Positions 7,482 to 26,930 of a stretch of 64,000 nt of DNA are shown here, piece by piece. This DNA comes from Paenibacillus sp. MMS20-IR301 (GTDB lineage: Bacteria > Bacillota > Bacilli > Paenibacillales > Paenibacillaceae), in the NCBI RefSeq assembly GCF_032302195.1, contig NZ_CP135275.1:1364001-1428000 (forward strand), given 5' to 3'. The notes beneath the pieces were generated by a model. It was not told the DNA's origin, did no database searches, and worked only from the letters and a program-made list of their open reading frames with translations. Numbering within the stretch: position 1 is the first letter of the stretch; each line of letters starts with the position of its first letter. The translations under genes were made by a program, and so were the position numbers.

Positions 7482-9578
7482 ATGGAACAACGTGTAGAAA
7501 TGCTGCTAGGCGGAAGACGCCTTGTGCTGGAAACAGGCCGTCTGGCCAAACAAGCGAACGCAGCCGTTATGGTTCGTTACGGAGATACTTCAGTATTGTG
7601 TACGGTTACAGCTTCCAGTGAGCCTAAAGATCTGGATTTCTTCCCGCTTACAGTGAACTATGAAGAAAGATTATATGCAGTAGGTAAAATCCCCGGCGGA
7701 TTCATCAAGCGTGAAGGCCGTCCGAGTGAAAAAGCCATTCTGTCCAGCCGTCTGACCGACCGCCCGATCCGTCCATTGTTCCCGGAAGGGTTCCGCAATG
7801 ACGTTCAGGTGCTGAATCTGGTTATGAGCGTGGAGCAGGACTGCGCACCTGATATTGCGGCAATGATCGGTACTTCCGCTGCACTGAGTATTTCCGATGT
7901 GCCTTTCAACGGCCCTATCGGCGGTGTGGCAGTAGGCCGTATCGACGGTGAATTCATCATCAATCCGACTGTAGCCCAGCAGGCAGTCAGTGAGATCTAC
8001 GTGGTAGTAGCGGGTACGAAGGATGCTATCATGATGGTTGAAGCTGAAGCGAATGAAGTATCCGAAGATGTGATGCTTGAAGCGATTATGTTCGGTCATG
8101 ATGAAGTCCGCAAGATTGTTGCTGTGATTGAGCAGCTCGTGGCTGTTGCCGGTAAGGAAAAGATGGCAGTGAAGCTGCATGCGGTTAACGCTGATGTGAA
8201 TACAGAGGTTCGTGCTTATGCGCAGAGCCGCCTGGTTGAAGCGGTAAGAATTGCCGAGAAGCATGCCCGTCAGGATGCCATCGACGTTATCAACAGTGAA
8301 ACGGTGGAGTATTTCGTAGAGAAATACATAGAGACACCAGAACTTCTGAAGGATGTAAAAGAAGTGCTGCATGATATCGTGAAGGACGAAGTAAGACGTC
8401 TGATCACGCATGATAAAGTACGCCCGGATGGACGCAAGCTGGACGAGATCCGTCCGATTGAATGCGATACAGCCCTGCTGCCGCGTACGCACGGTTCCGG
8501 TCTGTTCACACGCGGTCAAACACAGATCCTGAGCGTATGTACACTTGGCGCACTGGGTGATGTGCAGATTCTGGACGGCATTGATCCGGCTGAAACCAAG
8601 CGTTTCATGCATCATTACAATTTCCCTCCGTTCAGCGTAGGGGAAGCCCGTCCGCTGAGAGCACCGGGACGCCGCGAAATCGGCCATGGCGCACTGGGTG
8701 AGCGCGCATTGTCCAAGGTCATTCCAAGTGAAACTGAATTCCCGTACACCATCCGTCTGGTATCAGAAGCGATTGAATCCAACGGTTCAACTTCCCAGGC
8801 GAGCATTTGCGCCAGTATCCTGGCGATGATGGATGCCGGGGTGCCGATTAAGGCACCAGTAGCAGGTGTTGCTATGGGTCTGATCAAAGACGGGGAGCAT
8901 GTCTCTATCCTGACCGATATTCAAGGCATGGAAGATCACCTCGGCGATATGGACTTTAAGGTAGCAGGTACAGCAGAAGGTGTTACTGCGATTCAGATGG
9001 ATATCAAAATCGACGGTATCGACCGCAAAATTCTGCAGGATGCTCTGGAGCAAGCGAGAGAAGGACGTATGTTCATCCTGGGTAAGATGAATGAAGCCAT
9101 CTCCGCACCAAGACCAAGCCTGTCCCAATATGCGCCAAAAATCATCATCATCAACATCAACCCGGACAAAATCCGCGATGTTATCGGTGCTGGTGGTAAG
9201 ATCATCAACAAGATCATTGAAGAAACCGGCGTGAAAATCGACATCGAACAGGATGGACGTGTCTTCATCGGCTCTTCCGACGAAGCGATGATCCAGAAGG
9301 CCCGCGGTATTATCGAAGGCATCGTGAAAGAAGTTCAGGTCGGTGAAATTTATGCAGGTACTGTAAGACGCATCGAGAAGTTCGGCGCATTCGTTGAACT
9401 GATCCCTGGTAAAGACGGTCTTGTGCATATTTCCCAGCTGTCTACAGAACGCGTAGCCAAAGTGGAAGATGTGGTTGCGATCGGTGATGTTATTACCGTG
9501 AAGGTAACCGAAATTGACCAGCAGGGCCGTGTCAATCTGTCGCGCAAAGCTGTACTGACTGCGGAAGCGAAGGCTTAA
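7482..9578 (+). CDS. pnp: Polyribonucleotide nucleotidyltransferase (PNPase)
   Basis: A 698-residue phosphorolytic 3'-5' exoribonuclease of the degradosome. Two RNase PH core domains lie at ~10-140 and ~315-455 ([15 protein letters not shown] opens the second). An alpha-helical linker sits between them. A KH domain follows with [12 protein letters not shown] (~568), and an S1 domain with [18 protein letters not shown] (~635). The ATG follows AAGGAGGGG; the frame is open for 16 more codons upstream but is not conserved. It sits after rpsO and before ylxY, as in B. subtilis. Confidence 0.97.
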
Positions 9579-9624
9579 ACAGCCTGCTTTTACATTAAGG
9601 TTAAGCTGCCTAACTGAATAAATG

Positions 9625-9664
9625 AAAAAGAGACAGAAGCATTACCGTTCTGGCTCTTTTTTTT
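9625..9664 (+). terminator. Rho-independent terminator after pnp
   Basis: AAAAAGAG.CAGAA pairs with TTCTG.CTCTTTTT across a 9-nt loop and runs into T8. Confidence 0.8.
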
Positions 9665-9828
9665 GGAAAGATGAGAATTTATAAGTTTCGCACGATAGTG
9701 ATGGCAACGCTGTTCCTGCTTGGTCATAAATGACTCTTTTCATACATAGGCTGGGACAAAGCGTCCTTGCACGGCTACTTCCTTGTGCGGGACGGATCAG
9801 ACCGTTTCTGCCAGGGAGGAAAGACGTC

Positions 9829-10815
9829 ATGAAGACGGATAAAGCCGCGCTTGTGCTGGCGTGTATTGCTGTTATAATCGGGATCGGCAGCACGGATGGC
9901 CCGGTTAAAGAGATGTTCGCCGGGCTGAAGCCGCAGGCTGCGGAGGCTGTGCTTGGTACGGGCGGTGCCGATAAAAGTGAGGAACTGCGTGCACGGATAG
10001 TCAAGCAGGCGGCTGAGCTGAATGCCCCGCCGGTTGATGCGGCCCTTGACCGGGTATGGAAGGCCATACCGGGCTATAACGGGCTTGAAGTAGATGTGGA
10101 GGCATCGTACCGGAATGCCCTGCTGCGGGGGCCGTCAGACAGTCTCAAGCTTGTTTACCGCCAGAGCGTGCCCAAGGTATCACTGGATGACCTGGGGGCG
10201 CAGCCGATTTACCGGGGGAATCCGGCGAAGCCGATGGTTTCCCTGATGATTAACGTCGCCTGGGGCAATGATTATATCATTCCGATGCTGGATATTCTGG
10301 ATGCGGAGCAGGTGAAGGTAACCTTTTTCCTTGATGGCAGCTGGCTGAGTAAGAATAAGGAGCTGGCCGCAGAGATGCTGAAGCGCGGACATGAGGTAGA
10401 GAATCATGCCTATTCACATCCCAATATGAGCCAGCTTAGCCGGGCGCGCGCTACCGTAGAGATCGAGAAGACGCAGAAGCTGCTGAAGGAGAGCCTGGGC
10501 GTAACCAATAAGTGGTTTGCCCCGCCGTCAGGCGATTTTAACCAGCAGACCGTAGAAATAGCAGCCTCACTGGGTCTGAAGACGGTGCTCTGGACGCTGG
10601 ATACAGTGGATTGGCAGGGTCCGTCACCGGAATCGGTCATCCATAAAATCAGCAGCAAAGCTGAACCGGGCACCCTGGTGCTGATGCATCCGACAGCCTC
10701 CTCCTCCAAAGCGCTGAGGGGAATGATCCGCGGGATCAGGGCGAAGGGACTGCAGCTGGGAACCGTCAGCCAGACGCTGTCAGCAAAGCGGGTATTGCCG
10801 CCGGAAGTTGAGTGA
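9829..10815 (+). CDS. ylxY: YlxY-type polysaccharide deacetylase-like protein
   Basis: A ~328-residue exported protein. Residues ~6-24 form a hydrophobic signal/anchor (AALVLACIAVIIGIG). The NodB-like domain covers ~135-315: VTFFLDGSWLSKN, HEVENHAYSHPNMS with the metal-binding His pair, FAPPSGDFNQQTV, and LWTLDTVDWQGPSP. The usual TFDDG motif with the catalytic Asp pair is replaced by INVAWGND, so classical deacetylase activity is doubtful. The ATG follows GGGAGGAAAG; an upstream in-frame ATG (9730) would bury the signal peptide. Synteny between pnp and mlpA matches B. subtilis ylxY. Confidence 0.85.
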   Translation: MKTDKAALVLACIAVIIGIGSTDGPVKEMFAGLKPQAAEAVLGTGGADKSEELRARIVKQAAELNAPPVDAALDRVWKAIPGYNGLEVDVEASYRNALLRGPSDSLKLVYRQSVPKVSLDDLGAQPIYRGNPAKPMVSLMINVAWGNDYIIPMLDILDAEQVKVTFFLDGSWLSKNKELAAEMLKRGHEVENHAYSHPNMSQLSRARATVEIEKTQKLLKESLGVTNKWFAPPSGDFNQQTVEIAASLGLKTVLWTLDTVDWQGPSPESVIHKISSKAEPGTLVLMHPTASSSKALRGMIRGIRAKGLQLGTVSQTLSAKRVLPPEVE

Positions 10816-10892
10816 ACGGCTTTTATCTGATAGGATAAGAGGCGCGAATAATAAATACAGAGAGAACAGGGCTGTGCCAGGAGGATTTTACA

Positions 10893-12158
10893 TTGGACAA
10901 AATATTATTATCGAACGGCCTGCGGGTGGTCACGGAGAAAATCCCGACCGGAAGGTCCGTATCCTTCGGAATCTGGGTCAAGACGGGCTCGCGCAATGAG
11001 AATCCGCTGAATAACGGGATTTCACATTTTATCGAGCATATGCTCTTCAAGGGAACTGACCGCTACAGCGCGAAAGATATCGCGGAGCAGTTTGATGCAA
11101 TTGGCGGCAACGTCAATGCCTTTACCTCCAAGGAATATACATGCTACTATGCCAAAGTCCTGGATGAGCACCTGCCGATTGCGGTGGATGTGCTGGCGGA
11201 TATGTTTTTCCGTTCACGGATGGATGCGGAGGAGCTGGCCAAGGAGAAAAATGTGATTCTTGAGGAGATCGCCATGTGCGAGGATACTCCGGATGATCTG
11301 GTCCATGAGCTGATGTGTGCTGCTGCATATGGGGAGCACCCGCTGGCATATACCATTCTCGGGCTGAAGGAGCGCCTGCTGGAAATGACGCCGGACGACC
11401 TCCGGACGTACATGAAGGAACAGTATACAATAGAGAATACAGTAATCAGTGTAGCCGGGAATATCAATGACGGGCTGATTGACCTGCTCGAGCAGCATTT
11501 CGGGTCCTTTGCTAACCACGGGGAATCCCCGGCGCTGACTGAACCGGATTATCAGGGTGAACTCGTCTTCCACAAAAAGAAAACCGAGCAGAACCATATC
11601 TGTATCTCCCTGCCCGGTGTACAGAGCGGCGGTGTGCATCAATATCCGATGGCACTTCTCAACAATGCCTTCGGCGGCGGCATGAGTTCACGGCTGTTCC
11701 AGGAGATCCGCGAGAAGCGCGGACTGGCCTATTCCGTATTCTCTTACCACAGCGCACAGGCGGACAGCGGACTGTTCACGGTGTATGCCGGGACTGCACC
11801 GAAGCAGACCAAGGAAGTTACAGAGCTGATCAAAGAAATGCTGCATGATCTGGCCGTGAACGGCCTCAGCGAGGATGAGCTGCGCAAGGGTAAGGAACAG
11901 CTGAAGGGCAGCCTGATCTTAAGCCTGGAGAGCACCAGCAGCCGGATGAACCGGATGGGTAAAAATGAGCTGATGCTCGGCAGACAGGATACGCTGGATG
12001 AGATGATAGCTAAAATAGCGGCTGTTACCATGGATGACGTGAATGCGCTGCTGGACTTTATGTTCTCGCAGCCGCTGTCCCTGGCAATGGTCGGTTCAAG
12101 TGATAAAGCGATAGAGAGAGTTAGGAGAGATGATCTTGTCTTATTACGTGCAAATTAA
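10893..12158 (+). CDS. mlpA: M16-family zinc peptidase MlpA (YmxG)
   Basis: A 421-residue single-chain member of the insulinase/processing peptidase family. The inverted zinc motif HxxEH is seen as H45-F-I-E48-H49, with the distal Glu region ~75 residues later ([18 protein letters not shown]). The C-terminal half has [22 protein letters not shown], which contacts substrate in M16 enzymes. It starts at TTG 10893 behind CAGGAGG. Its 3' end overlaps dut by about 23 bp. In B. subtilis the homologue lies in the same place and affects extracellular protease regulation. Confidence 0.93.
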
Positions 12159-12582
12159 CAAACTTCCGGGTAACGAAGATGTGCTGCTGCCCCGTAAAAT
12201 GTCTGAACAGGCCTCAGGATATGACCTGTATGCTGCTGTAGCAGAGGCTGTAGTGCTTGCTCCGGGCGAGCGGGCGTTAATCCCGACCGGAATATCCCTC
12301 GCTATGCCGGACGGGCTGGAGGCGCAAATCCGTCCGCGCAGCGGGCTGGCGCTGAAACATGGCATTACCTGCCTCAATACGCCGGGTACAATTGACGCGG
12401 ATTACCGCGGTGAGGTCAAGGTGCTGCTGATCAATCTGGGACAGGAGCCGTTTGCTATCGCCCGCAATGAACGGATTGCCCAGATGGTGTTCCAGGCGGT
12501 GCCTTCTGTGACGCTGGTGGAAGTAGATCAGCTCTCGGAAACCGAGCGCGGCGCCGGTGGCTTCGGCCATACCGGTAAGTAA
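12136..12582 (+). CDS. dut: dUTP diphosphatase (trimeric dUTPase)
   Basis: Hydrolyses dUTP to dUMP and pyrophosphate, keeping uracil out of DNA and feeding thymidylate synthesis. All five trimeric dUTPase motifs are visible: ASGYDLYA (~25), [11 protein letters not shown] (~62), [14 protein letters not shown] (~78), ERIAQMVF (~107) and the Gly-rich C-terminal [11 protein letters not shown]. The start is probably TTG 12136, 8 bp after AGGAG; an in-frame ATG at 12130 is only 2 bp from that site and would add two residues. It overlaps the end of mlpA. Confidence 0.94.
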
Positions 12583-12605
12583 TTGTATTAACGCTGAACG
12601 GTAAT

Positions 12606-12652
12606 TAAAAAGCTTGCGGAATCACCACATGGTGCGTTCTGCAAGCTTTTTT
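12606..12652. terminator. Bidirectional terminator between dut and the S41 peptidase
   Basis: AAAAAGCTTGCGGAA pairs with TTCTGCAAGCTTTTT around a small CACCACATGGTG inner hairpin, with A-runs and T-runs on both sides. It serves both convergent genes. Confidence 0.85.
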
Positions 12653-12670
12653 AGCGTGTATGGCCGGATC

Positions 12671-14179
12671 TTAATTCAGCTTGGAAGCGGCTGCGGGCTG
12701 ATTCTGTCCAATCACCTCATACAGCTTCTCCATCTGGGCATCCCGGCGGTCTATAATATCCCGGGCTGTTGTATAAGCTTCAATATCTGGAATGACCGCG
12801 CTGGCCGGATCACGGCTGGGATCAGGGCGGGTGAATTTTTTGTGGGAGACGATATAGCTGATTCCGGAAGCCGGAAGCCGGAAACTCAGGTAATCGCCAT
12901 AAGACGAGGGCTTATTCCCGGTGGCTTGCCCGATAAGTTGTCCCAGCTTGTTATCCTGCACAATTAAAGCGAACATGTTCGCCGAGCTAAAGGTACGCGG
13001 CGAAGTCAGCACATACAGATTACCGCTGAACGGATATTCTGTCTGCAGAGCATTCGTAATTATTTCCGCCTCATTAACCGCAACGCCATGGTCCGGGCTG
13101 CCTGGCCGCTGCTGCTTGACTTGGGGGGAATAGCGGATTTCGCTTTTGAAGCTGCGGTATTCCTTAATATCGGTATAGGTCAGGAATTCACTAACAACAC
13201 TTGAATCGCCGCCCCCGTTATTCCTTAAATCGACAGCAACATTAGTAATCCCCTGAGTATGCACTTCGTTAAAAAACCGCTGAAGGGTAGCTTTGTAATC
13301 CTCAGAATTCACGCAGCTGTTCAATTGGAAGATGCCTAAGGACCGTTTCTTATCCATCTCGAAGGTAAAATCAGTATTATACTTGGGAAATGGATTATAT
13401 TCAGCCTGTCCGGAAGAATCCGTTAACTCAAAGCTCTGGGCCAGAGACTGCGAGCCGCGCATAACGGTTATCTCCACTGTATGCTGATCTGAAATCAACC
13501 CTAAGTAGTTAAGGAATTGTTCTGTCCGGAGCAGGCTCTGGCCCCGTTCCTTAACCCAAATGTCATTCTCTGCAGAAATAACTGAGCTTAGCTCTGCTTC
13601 CAGTTCGCTAATGCTGCGTCCCCCGATATCCGTCACCAGATCCCCAGGCAGCAGCTGGCCCCGTTTGTCAGTCACCACCAGACCTTCACGGCTCCAGAAT
13701 AACGGAATATCCAGATATTTATTTACAGTTGGCGAATACAGCACGGTATGCGCGTCATGCAGCAGCGTGGCTATTGAGTCGGCTATGAAATAAAATTCGC
13801 CCGGTGTCCGGGGCTGATCGGCCTTTGCGTACGCCGCTTCAATAACCTGCTGTTCTTCAGCCGTCCATCCGTCAATTAACCGTGGATGCACCTTCACGAG
13901 CGTATCCGTGAGGCTGTCCAGATCCTCTTTCATCTGTGCCGGGCTCAGCTTTGCCACTTCGGGAGCGGGGGCAGGGACTGGCAGCCCGGAAAGGGTTGTA
14001 TTAAGCGGGCTGGCTGCCGCTTCACCATTATGTGCAGCTGCTGAGGGAACAGGGGAACCCTCGAGGAGCCGCCCGCTTTGCCCCCAGCCCAATCCGGCGT
14101 TTCCGGTGGAGACGGCTGCAGCGATGATTCCGGCTATGGATAGAATTGCGGCTGCGAATAGATAATGTTTTTTCTCCAT
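12671..14179 (-). CDS. S41-family (C-terminal processing-like) serine peptidase
   Basis: A 502-residue exported protein. Residues ~6-24 are a hydrophobic signal/anchor and ~28-80 are low-complexity Ala/Pro/Ser. An N-terminal helical part (MKEDLDSLTDTLVKVHP) precedes a divergent PDZ-like segment (LLPGDLVTDIGGRSI, ~177). The S41 core begins near 275. DLRNNGGGDSS (317-326) is the conserved oxyanion/core motif, and LTSPRTFSSANMF (391-403) supplies the likely nucleophilic Ser398/399. It resembles the S41 proteins of Firmicutes that lack a strict CtpA PDZ. Physiological substrate unknown. It is convergent to dut and is not part of the conserved B. subtilis order here. Confidence 0.8.
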   Translation of the reverse strand: MEKKHYLFAAAILSIAGIIAAAVSTGNAGLGWGQSGRLLEGSPVPSAAAHNGEAAASPLNTTLSGLPVPAPAPEVAKLSPAQMKEDLDSLTDTLVKVHPRLIDGWTAEEQQVIEAAYAKADQPRTPGEFYFIADSIATLLHDAHTVLYSPTVNKYLDIPLFWSREGLVVTDKRGQLLPGDLVTDIGGRSISELEAELSSVISAENDIWVKERGQSLLRTEQFLNYLGLISDQHTVEITVMRGSQSLAQSFELTDSSGQAEYNPFPKYNTDFTFEMDKKRSLGIFQLNSCVNSEDYKATLQRFFNEVHTQGITNVAVDLRNNGGGDSSVVSEFLTYTDIKEYRSFKSEIRYSPQVKQQRPGSPDHGVAVNEAEIITNALQTEYPFSGNLYVLTSPRTFSSANMFALIVQDNKLGQLIGQATGNKPSSYGDYLSFRLPASGISYIVSHKKFTRPDPSRDPASAVIPDIEAYTTARDIIDRRDAQMEKLYEVIGQNQPAAASKLN

Positions 14180-14345: not shown

Positions 14346-15242
14346 ATGCTTACTGGCATCAGGATCGTGTTCCTGGGCGGGGACGCGAGACAACTTGAAG
14401 TGATTCGGAAATGTGTGGAAATGGATGCAGCGGTAAGTGTTGCCGGGTTCGACAAATGGGAGGTCCCAAGCCCTGGGGTCAGCCTGGAACTGCTGTCGGC
14501 AGAGCTGCTTGAACATGCGGATGTGCTCGTGCTGCCGACTGTTGGCTGCGATGATGAAGGTTATGTGAATGCATTGTTCTCTTCCGAGCGGCTGCAGCTG
14601 CGGGAGGAGCATATCGCTGCCCTGCCTTCCCGGGCGATTGTGTACACCGGTATGGCTAAAAGCTATCTGCGCAGCCTGTGCGCAAAGCGTTCCCTTAAGC
14701 TTGTAGAGCTGCTTAACCGGGATGATGTGGCTATTTATAACTCCATTCCGACAGCGGAGGGAGCACTGGTGATGGCGATCCAAAATACCGACTTCACGAT
14801 ACACGGCTCCACCTGCATGGTGCTGGGTATGGGAAGAACCGGCTTCACCATGGCGAGGGCGCTGCAGGGAATGGGGGCAACCGTAAAGGTAGGCGTGAGG
14901 AAACAGGAGCATTATGCCAGGGCGGCGGAAATGGGCTGGAAGCCCTTTATGACGGATAATCTGCTGAACCATGTGCCGGAGGCGGATCTTATCTTTAATA
15001 CAATTCCAAGTATGATTATCAACGCACAGGTTCTATCACGGCTTCTGCGGCACTGCGTGATCATTGATTTGGCTTCCGCACCGGGCGGATGTGATTTCCG
15101 CTATGCCGAGAAGCGCGGGATCAAGGCGATGCTGGCACCGGGACTTCCCGGTATCGTTGCCCCGAGGAGCGCCGGAATCATTATGGCAAATGCGCTGGTA
15201 CAGTCGATATCGGACGAGACTTTAGTCAGGGGGGACGAATGA
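14346..15242 (+). CDS. dpaA: Dipicolinate synthase subunit A
   Basis: A 298-residue dehydrogenase subunit that with DpaB oxidises dihydrodipicolinate to dipicolinic acid in the mother cell during sporulation. Visible features are the N-terminal VFLGGDARQLEVI, TGMAKSYLRS (~102), SIPTAEGALVMAIQNTDFTIHG (~135) and the Rossmann motif VLGMGRTG (~160). The APGLPGIVAPRSAGIIMAN end is also typical of DpaA. The ATG at 14346 lies 11 bp after AGGAG. It overlaps dpaB (ATGA). A decayed second copy of its middle part lies downstream at 15940-16241. Confidence 0.95.
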   Translation: MLTGIRIVFLGGDARQLEVIRKCVEMDAAVSVAGFDKWEVPSPGVSLELLSAELLEHADVLVLPTVGCDDEGYVNALFSSERLQLREEHIAALPSRAIVYTGMAKSYLRSLCAKRSLKLVELLNRDDVAIYNSIPTAEGALVMAIQNTDFTIHGSTCMVLGMGRTGFTMARALQGMGATVKVGVRKQEHYARAAEMGWKPFMTDNLLNHVPEADLIFNTIPSMIINAQVLSRLLRHCVIIDLASAPGGCDFRYAEKRGIKAMLAPGLPGIVAPRSAGIIMANALVQSISDETLVRGDE

Positions 15243-15838
15243 TGGATTGGCGTGGAAAAACAGTAGGTTATGCAATTACCGGCTCTCACTGCACCTTCGC
15301 CGAGGTGATGCCGCAGATTCAGCGTTTTATGGATGGGGGGGCCAATGTGGTGCCGATCGTTTCGCAATCGGTGCTGAACACGGACACCCGCTTTGGCACA
15401 TCGGAAAATTGGTTAAAACAGTTGAAAGATATAACGGGGAATGATATCATTTCTACAATTGTTGAAGCGGAACCGCTAGGGCCGTCTAAGCTGCTGGATG
15501 TACTTACGATAGCCCCCTGCACGGGGAATACCACGAGTAAACTAGCCAATGCGATGACTGACAGTCCTGTACTGATGGCAGCCAAATCGCAGATGCGCAA
15601 CGGACGCCCGCTGGTGCTGGCCATCTCGACCAACGATGGACTGGGCCTGAATGCGGCGAATATCGCGAAGCTGCTGGTGACCAAGAATATTTATTTCGTG
15701 CCGTTCGGCCAGGATAATCCGGCTGCGAAGCCGAATTCACTTGTAGCACGCATGGAACTGATTCCTGAAGCCTGCTACGCTGCCCTGCAGGGCAATCAGC
15801 TGCAGCCGATGATCATCGAACGGTTTCATTCAGCATAG
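15239..15838 (+). CDS. dpaB: Dipicolinate synthase subunit B (flavoprotein)
   Basis: A 199-residue member of the flavin-binding HFCD family. The start WRGKTVGYAITGSHCTFAEV carries the flavin phosphate-binding loop. VLTIAPCTGNTTSKLANAMTDSPV (~85) is the family's cofactor and substrate motif. It forms the DpaAB enzyme with the overlapping upstream gene. Either of two adjacent ATGs (15239, 15242) can serve; GGGGGG lies just upstream. Confidence 0.95.
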   Translation: MMDWRGKTVGYAITGSHCTFAEVMPQIQRFMDGGANVVPIVSQSVLNTDTRFGTSENWLKQLKDITGNDIISTIVEAEPLGPSKLLDVLTIAPCTGNTTSKLANAMTDSPVLMAAKSQMRNGRPLVLAISTNDGLGLNAANIAKLLVTKNIYFVPFGQDNPAAKPNSLVARMELIPEACYAALQGNQLQPMIIERFHSA

Positions 15839-15939
15839 CATTTCAGTCTGCTGCAATCGTATAGTCAACACTTCTGCCGTCCTCATTTTGAGGGCGGTTC
15901 AACACTTTATTCACTACTTTACAAGCAGGCCGATTGTTT

Positions 15940-16241
15940 GGTGCTCGCTAAAGCCGATGTTCTGGTGCTGCCGGTAGCGGGATGTGATGAGGAAGGAAAG
16001 ATTAATACGCTGTATTCCTCTGCTCCGCTTCACTGCTGGAGGAACATATGACATCGCTGCGGCCGGACTGTATAGTGTATACTGGTGTGGCCAAAAGCTA
16101 TTTGCGCTCCTTGGGCGCCGGTCATTCTCTCAGGCTTGTGGAACTGCTGGACAGGGATGATGTGGCGATATATAATTCTATACCGACTGCTGAAGGCGCT
16201 TTGGTAATGGCTATTCAGAACACCGACTTCACTATCCACAG
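15940..16241 (+). pseudogene. Decayed, truncated second copy of dpaA
   Basis: Translation gives ADVLVLPVAGCDEEGKINTLYSS, then after a one-base deletion near 16030 LLEEH...CIVYTGVAKSYLRS and on to NTDFTIH. These segments align with DpaA residues ~45-150. The match stops abruptly just before the position of the Rossmann glycine loop. A possible later scrap, KRGIPGLI at ~16263, recalls the DpaA C-terminal KRGI...PGLPGIV. The 5' start and the NAD-binding half are missing, so it cannot be functional. It occupies the place of asd in the B. subtilis operon. Confidence 0.85.
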
Positions 16242-24789: not shown

Positions 24790-25800
24790 TTATTCCACCC
24801 GCGGTGCGGCAAGCAGGCTGTCCACGATGTAATCAAGCTGGGCATTGAGCGAGTAAATATCACTGTAATAGGACAAGCCGAAATCAATCTCCATCAGCCG
24901 GCCGGCCTTGACAGCCGGGATGCTGGTCCAGAGCGGGTCACTAGTCAGATCAGCCATGCCGTCATAGGCAGAACGGAAGATATAATCCCCGCTGTAATCG
25001 GCCAGCACTTCGAACGATACGGTTTCACCGTCAGCGCCGGTAGCGGTATCGATCTTTTGCTGGACAAGCTCCGGGGCTTTCATCCCGAGATATTCATAAA
25101 TGACCTGGGAGCCGCGGCCGAATTGCTTGCTGGTGACAACAGCCATGCTGCGGTCTTTACCGCCTTCCATAATAGAGATTGTAGACCCGAGAATGCCGGC
25201 CTCCTGCAGCTTCTGTTTGCTTTCCTCCACCTTGGCATGGAAGCTGTCGAACAGGGAGGTGGCCTGGTCTTCTTTTCCTAATATCTGTCCGATAAAGCTG
25301 ACACGTTCCTCAGCGGTCATCTTCTCGTATGGAACGAGCACGGTTGGAGCGATATCATGCAATGCCTCGTAGGTCTCCTCGGAGGGGACAATAATCAGGT
25401 CCGGCTCCAGTGAAAGAACAACCTCAGGACTTGCTTCGAACCAGTTTCCCAGCTTCTGCACATCCTGCAGCTCTTGTTCGAAAGCGGCTCCCTCGGATAC
25501 GTCAGATACGCCGACAGGTTTGATGCCCAGAGCGAGAACATCCCCCAGAAGATAGAGTACAACCACCCGCTGCGGATCAGCCGGAACTTCAATTTCTCCT
25601 TTGACCGTTGAGATGGTCCGGGTCTGGGCTTCGGCGGATGCTTGATCCGGAGCTGTAGTTGCTGCGGCTGATGCAACGGGTGAATTGTTGCCGCTGCCGG
25701 AAGCAGCGTTGCCGGCTGTACCTGCGGAGCATGCGCTTAAAAGGATGGTGAAGCATAAGAGCAAGGTGAGAATTAGAGATGGTTTAGCTGTTCTGAACAT
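24790..25800 (-). CDS. Siderophore-binding lipoprotein part of a longer frame (ABC transporter substrate-binding protein)
   Basis: From the ATG at 25800 the product is 336 residues. It starts MFRTAKPSLILTLLLCFTILLSACSAG, a complete lipoprotein signal with lipobox LSAC, then a Ser/Ala/Thr linker and a TroA/FepB-like fold: VVVLYLLGDVLALGIKPVGV, SLEPDLIIVPS, ISIMEGGKDRSMAV. Such proteins bind ferric siderophores outside the membrane. AAAGGGG lies ~12 bp upstream and a perfect Fur box ~25 bp upstream. The same frame stays open upstream into the AraC regulator with no stop. No permease or ATPase gene is adjacent, so it would need a partner elsewhere. I favour this internal start for the exported protein. 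Confidence 0.75.
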   Translation of the reverse strand: MFRTAKPSLILTLLLCFTILLSACSAGTAGNAASGSGNNSPVASAAATTAPDQASAEAQTRTISTVKGEIEVPADPQRVVVLYLLGDVLALGIKPVGVSDVSEGAAFEQELQDVQKLGNWFEASPEVVLSLEPDLIIVPSEETYEALHDIAPTVLVPYEKMTAEERVSFIGQILGKEDQATSLFDSFHAKVEESKQKLQEAGILGSTISIMEGGKDRSMAVVTSKQFGRGSQVIYEYLGMKAPELVQQKIDTATGADGETVSFEVLADYSGDYIFRSAYDGMADLTSDPLWTSIPAVKAGRLMEIDFGLSYYSDIYSLNAQLDYIVDSLLAAPRVE

Positions 25801-26757
25801 GTCTGGCGCCCCTTTTAGGATATATTGATAATGATTATCATGATCAATATATCGGAGACCGCCGTCCCGGACAATGTCATAAGCAGACACGTCAGATGGC
25901 ATATCCGGCCATTTTCCTGCAGCAGGCAGAGAGTTTTTGTACCTTACCGGGGAGGTGCCGTAGAATTTCTTGAACATTTTACCAAAAGAATAGGCATCCG
26001 GATAGCCGACAGCGGCTGCGATCTCATGCAGGGCGGCTCCGGTATTCAGCAGCAGCCCGCGGGCTTTTTCCATCCGGATCCCGATCAGATATTGCGCCGG
26101 GCTGGTCTGAAGTCTGACCCGGAACAGTCTTGATAATGTTCTTGAGCTGGTGCCAAGTGTCTCAGCCAAAGTATCAAGCAGAAACGGCTTGTGATACTCA
26201 TCCTGCATATAACGTACAGCCTGCTCCAGCGGATCTGCCTTAAGGGGAAAGGCTGCCTGCTGTGCATGACGCTGCTGATGCAGCTCATGGACCCATTGAT
26301 AGAAAAGCGCCTTTGTATGCAAATGCTCAAGAACCCCGCCGCTCTGCCACTCGTTGTACATTTGGGCCAGCAGACCGTAAAGCGGCAGCGGGTGGGCAGG
26401 AATAAACTGGTAGGATTCAGCAAAAGGGCTGCTGCGCTCCAGAAGGGCTGCAAGATGCCTCCGCACCGGAAGAGTCATTGTAGCTCTGTACATAATTAAA
26501 TAGTATTCCAGGATTCCCTCTGTCCGGAGGACTTCAAGGGTCATGCCTTTACCGCCATGAAAGACACTTGACACACTTGCTTCAAAGGGAATTTCATCTA
26601 TAACTACACTGGCGGTACCGCGAATAACATACATATATGTACTTGCCGGCAGCCGGTACCGTAGCGGCAGATCTGCATAAGTAAACGAGGCCTGGCGGAT
26701 ATCAATAACTTCTATTAAAGCATGGTTCCACAGCACGATATGATCCTTCAGCTTCAT
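24790..26757 (-). CDS. AraC-family regulator, open in frame into the siderophore-binding protein
   Basis: The N-terminal ~275 residues are an AraC-type regulator: a cupin-like sensory half (ALIEVIDIRQASFTYADLP) and two helix-turn-helix motifs at ~190-275 (DTLAETLGTSSRTLSRLFR and EIAAAVGYPDAYSFGKMFKKFYG). No stop codon follows; a ~45-residue linker, encoded over a perfect Fur box, leads into a lipoprotein signal and a substrate-binding domain. Fusions of AraC to such domains exist (B. subtilis Btr/YbbB), but those lack a signal peptide in the middle. Either one 656-residue fusion is made, or the AraC stop was lost. ATG 26757 has AGGAG 12 bp before it; ATG 26784 is an alternative. A second Fur box precedes it. 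Confidence 0.7.
   Translation of the reverse strand: MKLKDHIVLWNHALIEVIDIRQASFTYADLPLRYRLPASTYMYVIRGTASVVIDEIPFEASVSSVFHGGKGMTLEVLRTEGILEYYLIMYRATMTLPVRRHLAALLERSSPFAESYQFIPAHPLPLYGLLAQMYNEWQSGGVLEHLHTKALFYQWVHELHQQRHAQQAAFPLKADPLEQAVRYMQDEYHKPFLLDTLAETLGTSSRTLSRLFRVRLQTSPAQYLIGIRMEKARGLLLNTGAALHEIAAAVGYPDAYSFGKMFKKFYGTSPVRYKNSLPAAGKWPDMPSDVSAYDIVRDGGLRYIDHDNHYQYILKGAPDMFRTAKPSLILTLLLCFTILLSACSAGTAGNAASGSGNNSPVASAAATTAPDQASAEAQTRTISTVKGEIEVPADPQRVVVLYLLGDVLALGIKPVGVSDVSEGAAFEQELQDVQKLGNWFEASPEVVLSLEPDLIIVPSEETYEALHDIAPTVLVPYEKMTAEERVSFIGQILGKEDQATSLFDSFHAKVEESKQKLQEAGILGSTISIMEGGKDRSMAVVTSKQFGRGSQVIYEYLGMKAPELVQQKIDTATGADGETVSFEVLADYSGDYIFRSAYDGMADLTSDPLWTSIPAVKAGRLMEIDFGLSYYSDIYSLNAQLDYIVDSLLAAPRVE
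25826..25840. promoter_or_regulatory. Perfect Fur box
   Basis: TGATAATGATTATCA matches the Bacillus 7-1-7 Fur consensus TGATAATnATTATCA at every defined base. It lies ~25 bp before the lipoprotein ATG (minus strand) and inside the open frame that joins it to the AraC part. Confidence 0.92.
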
Positions 26758-26798
26758 GTTAGCTCTCAACTCCTGTTGTTTCATATTTCAAGTATATT

Positions 26799-26813
26799 TG
26801 ATAATCGTTCTCA
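26799..26813. promoter_or_regulatory. Fur box upstream of the AraC regulator
   Basis: TGATAATCGTTCTCA differs from the Fur consensus at two bases. It lies ~40 bp before the AraC start on the minus strand, so the regulator gene is also likely iron-repressed. Confidence 0.7.
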
Positions 26814-26850
26814 GTTGCAACGAATTTACTGAGGTACGCACGCCGGTTAT

Positions 26851-26880
26851 GCATAGGATGTCTTGTCAGTCGTCATAATA
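26851..26880 (+). promoter_or_regulatory. Sigma-G promoter of sleB
   Basis: GCATA (26851-26855), 18 bp, CATAATA (26874-26880): both match the sigma-G consensus (GMATR, CATnnTA). sleB is forespore-expressed in B. subtilis. Confidence 0.7.
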
Positions 26881-26930
26881 ACTTTAGCCATTCATGCAGA
26901 ACTTACAAGAGAAAGGTAGAGCGAACCCTC

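Follow-up and report, generated by a model that had tools for sequence, protein, structure and literature searches.

A candidate Fur-controlled lipoprotein gene nested in frame within an AraC regulator gene of Paenibacillus

The DNA stretch analysed here (the window) comprises 64,000 nucleotides of Paenibacillus sp. MMS20-IR301 (contig NZ_CP135275.1, positions 1,364,001 to 1,428,000), and carries on its minus strand, at 24790-26784, an open frame of 664 codons in which an AraC regulator, a linker, a lipoprotein signal and a siderophore-binding domain follow one another. The features of this frame, a fusion of an AraC regulator with a substrate-binding protein (SBP), are listed below in window coordinates and in the order in which they are transcribed.

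26799-26813, minus strand: upstream Fur box TGAGAACGATTATCA (12 of 14 positions), between TTGCAA and TATACT and before the long frame (pattern search; orthologs).
24790-26757, minus strand: long product, the AraC-linker-signal-SBP fusion, 655 amino acids long when started at the conserved ATG and 664 when started at the ATG further upstream, at 26784.
25930-26757, minus strand: AraC part, made up of an N-terminal domain rich in beta strands, which lie between residues 22 and 103, and an AraC helix-turn-helix (HTH) domain (193-285); Pfam HTH_18 and HTH_AraC above cut-off, AlphaFold secondary structure, ratio of nonsynonymous to synonymous changes (pN/pS) 0.22.
25801-25929, minus strand: stop-free linker of 43 codons with promoter-like hexamers, a Fur box and a Shine-Dalgarno (SD) sequence; low model confidence (pLDDT below 50 over residues 288-337).
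25846-25874, minus strand: candidate sigma-A promoter TTGTCC-17-TATATT, overlapping codons I304-V305 and Y312-I313; weak alone.
25826-25840, minus strand: internal Fur box TGATAATCATTATCA (7-1-7), read in frame as D-N-H-Y; the perfect 15-base pattern was placed at 25827-25841.
25809-25816, minus strand: SD-like AAAAGGGG for the internal start, ending 8 nt before the ATG at 25800.
24790-25800, minus strand: predicted short product, a siderophore-binding lipoprotein of 336 amino acids from the internal ATG (sequence and start-codon counts in the family).
25729-25800, minus strand: lipoprotein signal with the lipobox LSAC (residues 349-352) and Cys352; helix at 337-351 in the model.
24805-25629, minus strand: FhuD-like class III substrate-binding domain, in which both glutamates for docking on the permease are present, E454 and E592 (Pfam, fold match, FhuD2 alignment).

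A preliminary description of this DNA had proposed a stopless frame of about 660 codons. This frame held up, except that the long form likely starts nine codons further in, at the ATG at 26757, which is conserved in 17 aligned orthologs, whereas the upstream ATG at 26784 is not. Every part that had been named, from the AraC regulator, the linker, the LSAC signal and the binding domain to the perfect Fur box and the SD-ATG pair in the linker, was found again. HTH_18 matched residues 206-284 with 79 bits against a curated cut-off of 33.6, which assigns the regulator to the AraC/XylS family of Pfam, and Peripla_BP_2 (PF01497) matched residues 414-634 above its cut-off. Between these domains lies the signal MFRTAKPSLILTLLLCFTILLSAC (residues 329-352), whose hydrophobic run of 15 residues has a mean hydropathy of 2.3-2.8; signal and lipobox sit behind their own internal start codon, as in class III lipoproteins. 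In the predicted model of the long product, a confident beta-rich N-terminal domain and HTH are followed by a low-confidence linker, the helix at 337-351, a low-confidence stretch and a confident FhuD-like domain, while the mean pLDDT of 79 and a predicted TM-score (pTM) of 0.45 leave the arrangement of the domains unfixed. The best solved-structure match of the binding domain was FhuD2 (4b8y; TM-score by target length 0.84), and E454 and E592 line up with the docking glutamates of FhuD2.

To place these features in context, we compared related loci. We took 135 of them (L001-L135), 133 of which contained both domains and 129 of which were collinear in one frame. The rows outside the 129 are L017 and L090 (no AraC part), L007 (frameshifted), L028 (a run of N) and L052 and L064, which the script presumably mispaired in a tandem triplet. 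The preliminary description had asked whether related genomes carry a stop between the AraC and receptor parts: none of the 129 linkers was stopped in frame, whereas the other two frames were stopped in 103 and 129 of the 129. A chance open frame could be rejected, as shuffled linkers were stop-free in only 4.8% of trials; the 129 linkers form 41 clusters at 50% linker identity and come in 16 different lengths. All 129 loci also have the lipobox, and their internal start codon is ATG in 121, GTG in 6 and TTG in 2. In-frame stops flagged in the genome search fall outside these linkers: L015, L076 and L110 have nonsense inside a domain, and the flagged stops of L054, L058 and L092 are probably due to alignments extending upstream of the start. 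A crude lipobox scan of 121 proteins gave none in nine, of which P0028, P0029 and P0111 are shorter pieces, and in the other six another hydrophobic segment had been picked.

Because the full-length query, which had supplied most of the 135 loci, is biased towards loci in frame, a search with the AraC half only served as a check. With this half as sole query, 47 of 100 genomes of the genus gave a match at E <=1e-25 (24 candidates scored per genome), and 146 of 150 among the matches listed lie in open frames of at least 580 amino acids (signal-less fusions included). Order-wide, the full query found matches at E <=1e-70 in 99 of 246 genomes and 15 of 46 genus codes. A separate protein search gave 192 relatives at E <=0.001 among 8000 candidates scored, most of the 120 listed having 640-690 amino acids. 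A further set of 79 named loci covers five genera (Paenibacillus, Cohnella, Lysinibacillus, Metasolibacillus and Brevibacillus) and Bacillus sp. FJAT-27264; 78 of them share the same frame, free of stops, with the Fur box in phase and the lipobox, the sole exception being L255, whose halves are in different frames. Seventeen of the 79 repeat members of L001-L135, and the two sets are therefore not independent; L190 and L161 are one locus. Judged from these comparisons, the arrangement is old and widespread and not the product of a lost stop codon.

The source genome (7.69 Mb, one contig) alone holds seven full-length nested genes (L001-L006 and L008), a number relevant to inventories of iron uptake. 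It also holds a frameshifted copy, L007 (C1:5966185-5968085), whose SBP part runs on in another frame. The window gene lies between ftsK and a sleB-like gene, a setting seen in 17 of 133 loci.

Allowing up to 3 mismatches, the window contains 8 Fur-pattern sites (three overlapping at the linker box) against 1.92 expected, a number reached in 0 of 100 shuffles. The linker Fur box scored at least 12/14 in 124 of 129 loci, compared with 0.16% of shuffled linkers, and at least 11/14 in 127 of the 129, in a single codon phase throughout. Upstream of the long frame, a Fur box of at least 12/14 was present in 100 of 129 loci versus 0.2% of shuffles. For the SD-like sequence, matches of at least 6/8 occurred in 54% of the 129 loci and in 20% of shuffles. 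The hexamers TTGTCC-17-TATATT (9/12) are no better than chance when the window region is taken alone (3 such sites, 2.6 expected).

The linker peptide can largely be read as this regulatory DNA translated. Its motif RYIDYDNHYQY holds TATATTGATNATGATAATCATTATCAATAT in frame, and among 33 aligned proteins the invariant residues of linker and signal are I304 (at the -35), Y312 (at the -10), M329 (the start) and L349, A351 and C352 (the lipobox). Synonymous codons within the Fur box are fixed (GAT 89, GAC 0; AAT 110, AAC 7; TAT 111, TAC 0), whereas C-ending codons make up about a third of the usage for D, N and Y across the domain parts of the same genes. In the 7-1-7 box the central base is free; it opens the third codon, whose residue varies between H, D, Y and N. 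When 41 representatives were aligned on the box, information came to 1.5-2.0 bits at every codon position apart from this free base (0.55) and base four (0.75; T, G or A). A null model based on recoding the same protein was weaker than these codon counts, as 16% of recoded linkers reached the observed Fur score. The codon counts show that selection acts at the DNA level on the internal Fur box. RYIDYDNHYQY as a feature of the protein was mostly rejected, as the motif tracks the promoter and the Fur box at every codon position; to judge from the alignments, what is conserved in the linker peptide is for the most part translated promoter, Fur box and start codon.

Both domains are under stronger constraint. 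In 48 disjoint pairs of relatives, three of which are uninformative (the L054, L058 and L092 rows, cut to five codons), pN/pS was 0.22 for the AraC part, which is therefore under selection as a protein, and 0.12 for the binding domain. Since no stop separates the parts, every AraC chain that ends at an ordinary stop must carry the receptor domain. Class III binding proteins dock on their permease through two glutamates, as given in the available text of PMC3741162. Both positions were E in 143 of 143 ungapped nested forms (three more, L054, L058 and L092, are gapped by artefact), in all three forms with a signal but no Fur box and in both separate genes, but in only 7 of 17 signal-less fusions. 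A smaller first set had given both glutamates in 132 of 132 against 3 of 11 signal-less fusions (Fisher p 4.6e-11, relatedness not removed). By this comparison the docking residues are held while the signal is present and relaxed without it, yet not always lost. A FecCD permease gene lies directly downstream in 26 of 133 loci (in flanks of only 0.6-1.5 kb), and L144 has two. In the source genome, the FecCD genes nearest to any nested gene are at C1:2280628-2282576, about 8 kb from L005, and no such gene lies within 30 kb of the other nested genes.

Several relatives have lost part of the arrangement. Nine loci (L152, L153, L164, L174 of the source genome and L192-L196) are still fused and have neither Fur box nor signal. 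In five relics (L161, L162, L163, L166 and L191) a weak hydrophobic stretch is kept and the lipobox is gone; L162 and L191 still have the remnant of a Fur box (11/14) in the original phase and count as Fur-positive by the 11/14 threshold, although L162 was placed with the Fur-negative rows in the Fisher table. Both glutamates were present in 0 of the 5 relics and in 7 of the 12 other signal-less fusions. In a quick tree, the signal-less fusions that were tested mostly fall within the nested genes: L152, L153, L174 and the relic group cluster with the nested L014 and L088 (support by the Shimodaira-Hasegawa-like approximate likelihood ratio test, SH-aLRT, 98), and L164 pairs with the nested L024 (99). 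This tree has long branches (L164, L165, L168, L171-L174, L176 and others), a chosen outgroup (L171-L173 and L176) and one row, L092, that is half empty. The simplest reading is that signal and Fur box were lost in at least two places, presumably in the direction from a nested ancestor to a plain fusion.

Given the joint conservation across genera of the open frame, the phase of the Fur box, the internal start and the lipobox, and the existence of fusions without signal and Fur box, we consider it likely that this is one gene with two nested products, an AraC-SBP fusion and a stand-alone receptor lipoprotein. The idea of a dual product, already put forward in the preliminary description, is thus well supported by the comparison, and both products are presumably made. 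In this scheme, Fur would leave both boxes at low iron and both products would be made: an upstream promoter, putatively controlled by Fur, would yield the 655-residue AraC regulator fused to its siderophore-binding domain, while the internal promoter, likewise a candidate for Fur control, and the start codon in the linker would yield the 336-residue receptor alone. The short form would be exported as a lipoprotein, take up ferri-siderophore and feed FecCD permeases, whereas the long form, by analogy with Btr, would sense the loaded siderophore and activate uptake genes.

Several observations weigh against this scheme. The promoter hexamers are weak, and at a threshold of at least 9/12 they show a modest excess in the family (41% of loci versus 18% of shuffles). 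L102, L113 and L165 retain signal and lipobox without a linker Fur box, and in the first two FecCD follows downstream. L169, whose AraC part is 34% identical, consists of two intact-looking genes separated by a change of frame, with the stop of the regulator overlapping the ATG of the receptor (ATGA); as it is split yet looks intact, the fusion is not indispensable. The signal-less L192 and L194-L196, which form one group, keep both glutamates, so that their loss is not strictly tied to loss of the signal. No FecCD gene was found near the window gene. Finally, ahead of the promoter the linker had a pN/pS of 0.58 (confidence interval (CI) 0.48-0.77) and a third-position excess of 1.42 (CI 1.13-1.75), weaker than in true domains; by these estimates the amino-acid constraint on the linker is low and partly at the DNA level.

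Within the scheme of two nested products, the fate of the long form can be pictured in more than one way: it may span the membrane, be cut by signal peptidase II at Cys352, or stay in the cytoplasm with its signal ignored. The long form necessarily includes the signal and may therefore sit in the membrane, AraC inside and the receptor outside; our guess leans slightly towards insertion. A version that we hold possible, though tentatively, is a membrane-tethered polyprotein, in which the signal inserts, the receptor is exported and signal peptidase II cleaves behind it at Cys352, so that membrane-bound AraC and lipoprotein arise from one translation and the internal promoter only adds receptor. 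Signal and lipobox are unavoidable in the long product, with the lipobox present at every collinear locus; the weak hydrophobic stretch persists in the relic clade after loss of the lipobox; and in the three loci with a signal but no linker Fur box, two of them with FecCD downstream, the receptor may come from the long transcript. On the other hand, the short product by itself accounts for the retention of signal and lipobox, and of the 14 fused loci counted Fur-negative, 11 are also without lipobox and only 3 keep it. The fullest form of this idea, to which we give a similarly tentative place, is that the receptor stretch is used twice, as an exported siderophore receptor made from the in-frame Fur promoter and as a sensor outside the cell for an AraC regulator tethered to the membrane, the two being separable by signal peptidase II, and that branches losing the internal promoter and the signal, some with docking residues too, become Btr-like fusions.

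Rather less probable, in our view, is a long product that stays cytoplasmic like Btr with its signal ignored or buried, the short one being the transport receptor. Signal-less fusions with intact frames do occur within the family, but the hydrophobic run of 15 residues would be expected to engage the export machinery. We regard as improbable that only the short product and an AraC protein from non-standard termination matter, the open frame being a by-product of the overlap between promoter and regulator, or serving translational coupling. The ATGA overlap of L169 and the weak constraint on the linker speak for it; yet an ATGA-like overlap would couple equally well and not one of the 129 linkers is stopped anywhere, and intact fusions without an internal promoter exist. 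As for the recent loss of the AraC stop codon that the preliminary description had offered as an alternative, it was refuted by the stop-free linkers of all collinear loci, and although unfused AraC and SBP pairs exist (L176, L169), we give neither it nor a sequencing error any real credence, as the fusion is conserved in the five named genera and in 15 of the 46 genus codes searched in the order.

The closest known system is Btr (YbbB) of Bacillus subtilis, described in the available text of PMC9609785 and PMC3896406 as an AraC regulator with a FeuA-like sensory domain, encoded upstream of feuA and listed as Fur-regulated; the plan of a one-component regulator, with an AraC HTH followed by a siderophore-binding-type domain in a single chain, is common to both. 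As in Btr-type regulators, the AraC HTH and Peripla_BP_2 of the window share one open frame. The NCBIfam model of Btr (NF049932, 531 positions) gave the window protein 52.9 bits, below the cut-off of 900. Btr is not known to carry an export signal between its halves, whereas the window protein and all collinear loci have a lipobox signal there, next to the promoter-like hexamers and the Fur box of the linker; moreover, its lipoprotein partner FeuA is a separate gene, while here one DNA stretch can encode both. The nested gene departs from Btr in two respects, internal signal and model score, but by analogy may work like it.

In fold, lipobox and both docking glutamates, the receptor part resembles FhuD/FhuD2-type class III lipoproteins, which normally stand alone as genes; in the source genome, L176 belongs to such an ordinary separate pair of AraC and SBP genes, whereas here the receptor sits inside an AraC frame, at its 3' end. 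CadC and ToxR are membrane-tethered one-component regulators with an N-terminal DNA-binding part, one hydrophobic segment and a C-terminal domain. The anatomy of the long product fits this plan, with a C-terminal domain possibly outside and a putative insertion in the membrane; it differs in being of the AraC type, not winged-helix, and in an outer domain that would double as transport receptor and has a lipobox. Two products from one frame are also known from CheA, in which an internal in-frame start gives a short isoform. The same is stated for ClpB in the available text of PMC6168691. Unlike these, the short form described here has a candidate metal-regulated promoter and an export signal that lies internally in the long form.

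Taken singly, AraC-SBP fusions, internal starts and Fur promoters all have precedents; the conserved in-frame nesting of a Fur promoter and a lipoprotein gene within an AraC-SBP fusion appears to be new, as searches of an open-access library gave no description of this architecture, which is limited evidence since most subscription papers lie outside that scope. Source annotations give one name only, an AraC or HTH regulator, a binding protein or a hypothetical protein (among the 120 matches listed), and exported receptors inside such genes can therefore be missed in inventories of iron uptake. In this family one can also read how regulatory DNA (promoter, Fur box and SD) is constrained to remain translatable, and the family suggests steps by which a pair of regulator and receptor genes could turn into a one-component regulator like Btr. 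If the receptor does serve twice with a tethered AraC and some branches lost promoter and signal, this would be a route by which Btr-like regulators evolve. The arrangement moreover suits a clean test of whether a lipoprotein signal tethers an AraC regulator to the membrane or releases it.

Two further blocks of DNA near the gene are mostly conserved in the 17 orthologs. At window positions 25897-25911, upstream of the internal -35, a block resembling TGGC[CG][GT]GAT[AG]TGCCA is a candidate AraC operator; at 26850-26890, the upstream block resembles a sporulation (sigma-G) promoter of the divergent sleB-like gene. Elsewhere, L090 (G090:C1:3741478-3742104) is a piece 81% identical to the SBP part of the window protein (residues 455-663), with no AraC part in the fetched flank. 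At L143 (G083:C1:2309000-2328999; 7510-13962 and 14371-15963), three nested AraC-SBP genes stand in tandem beside a divergent gene of 530 amino acids with HTH_18 and Peripla_BP_2.

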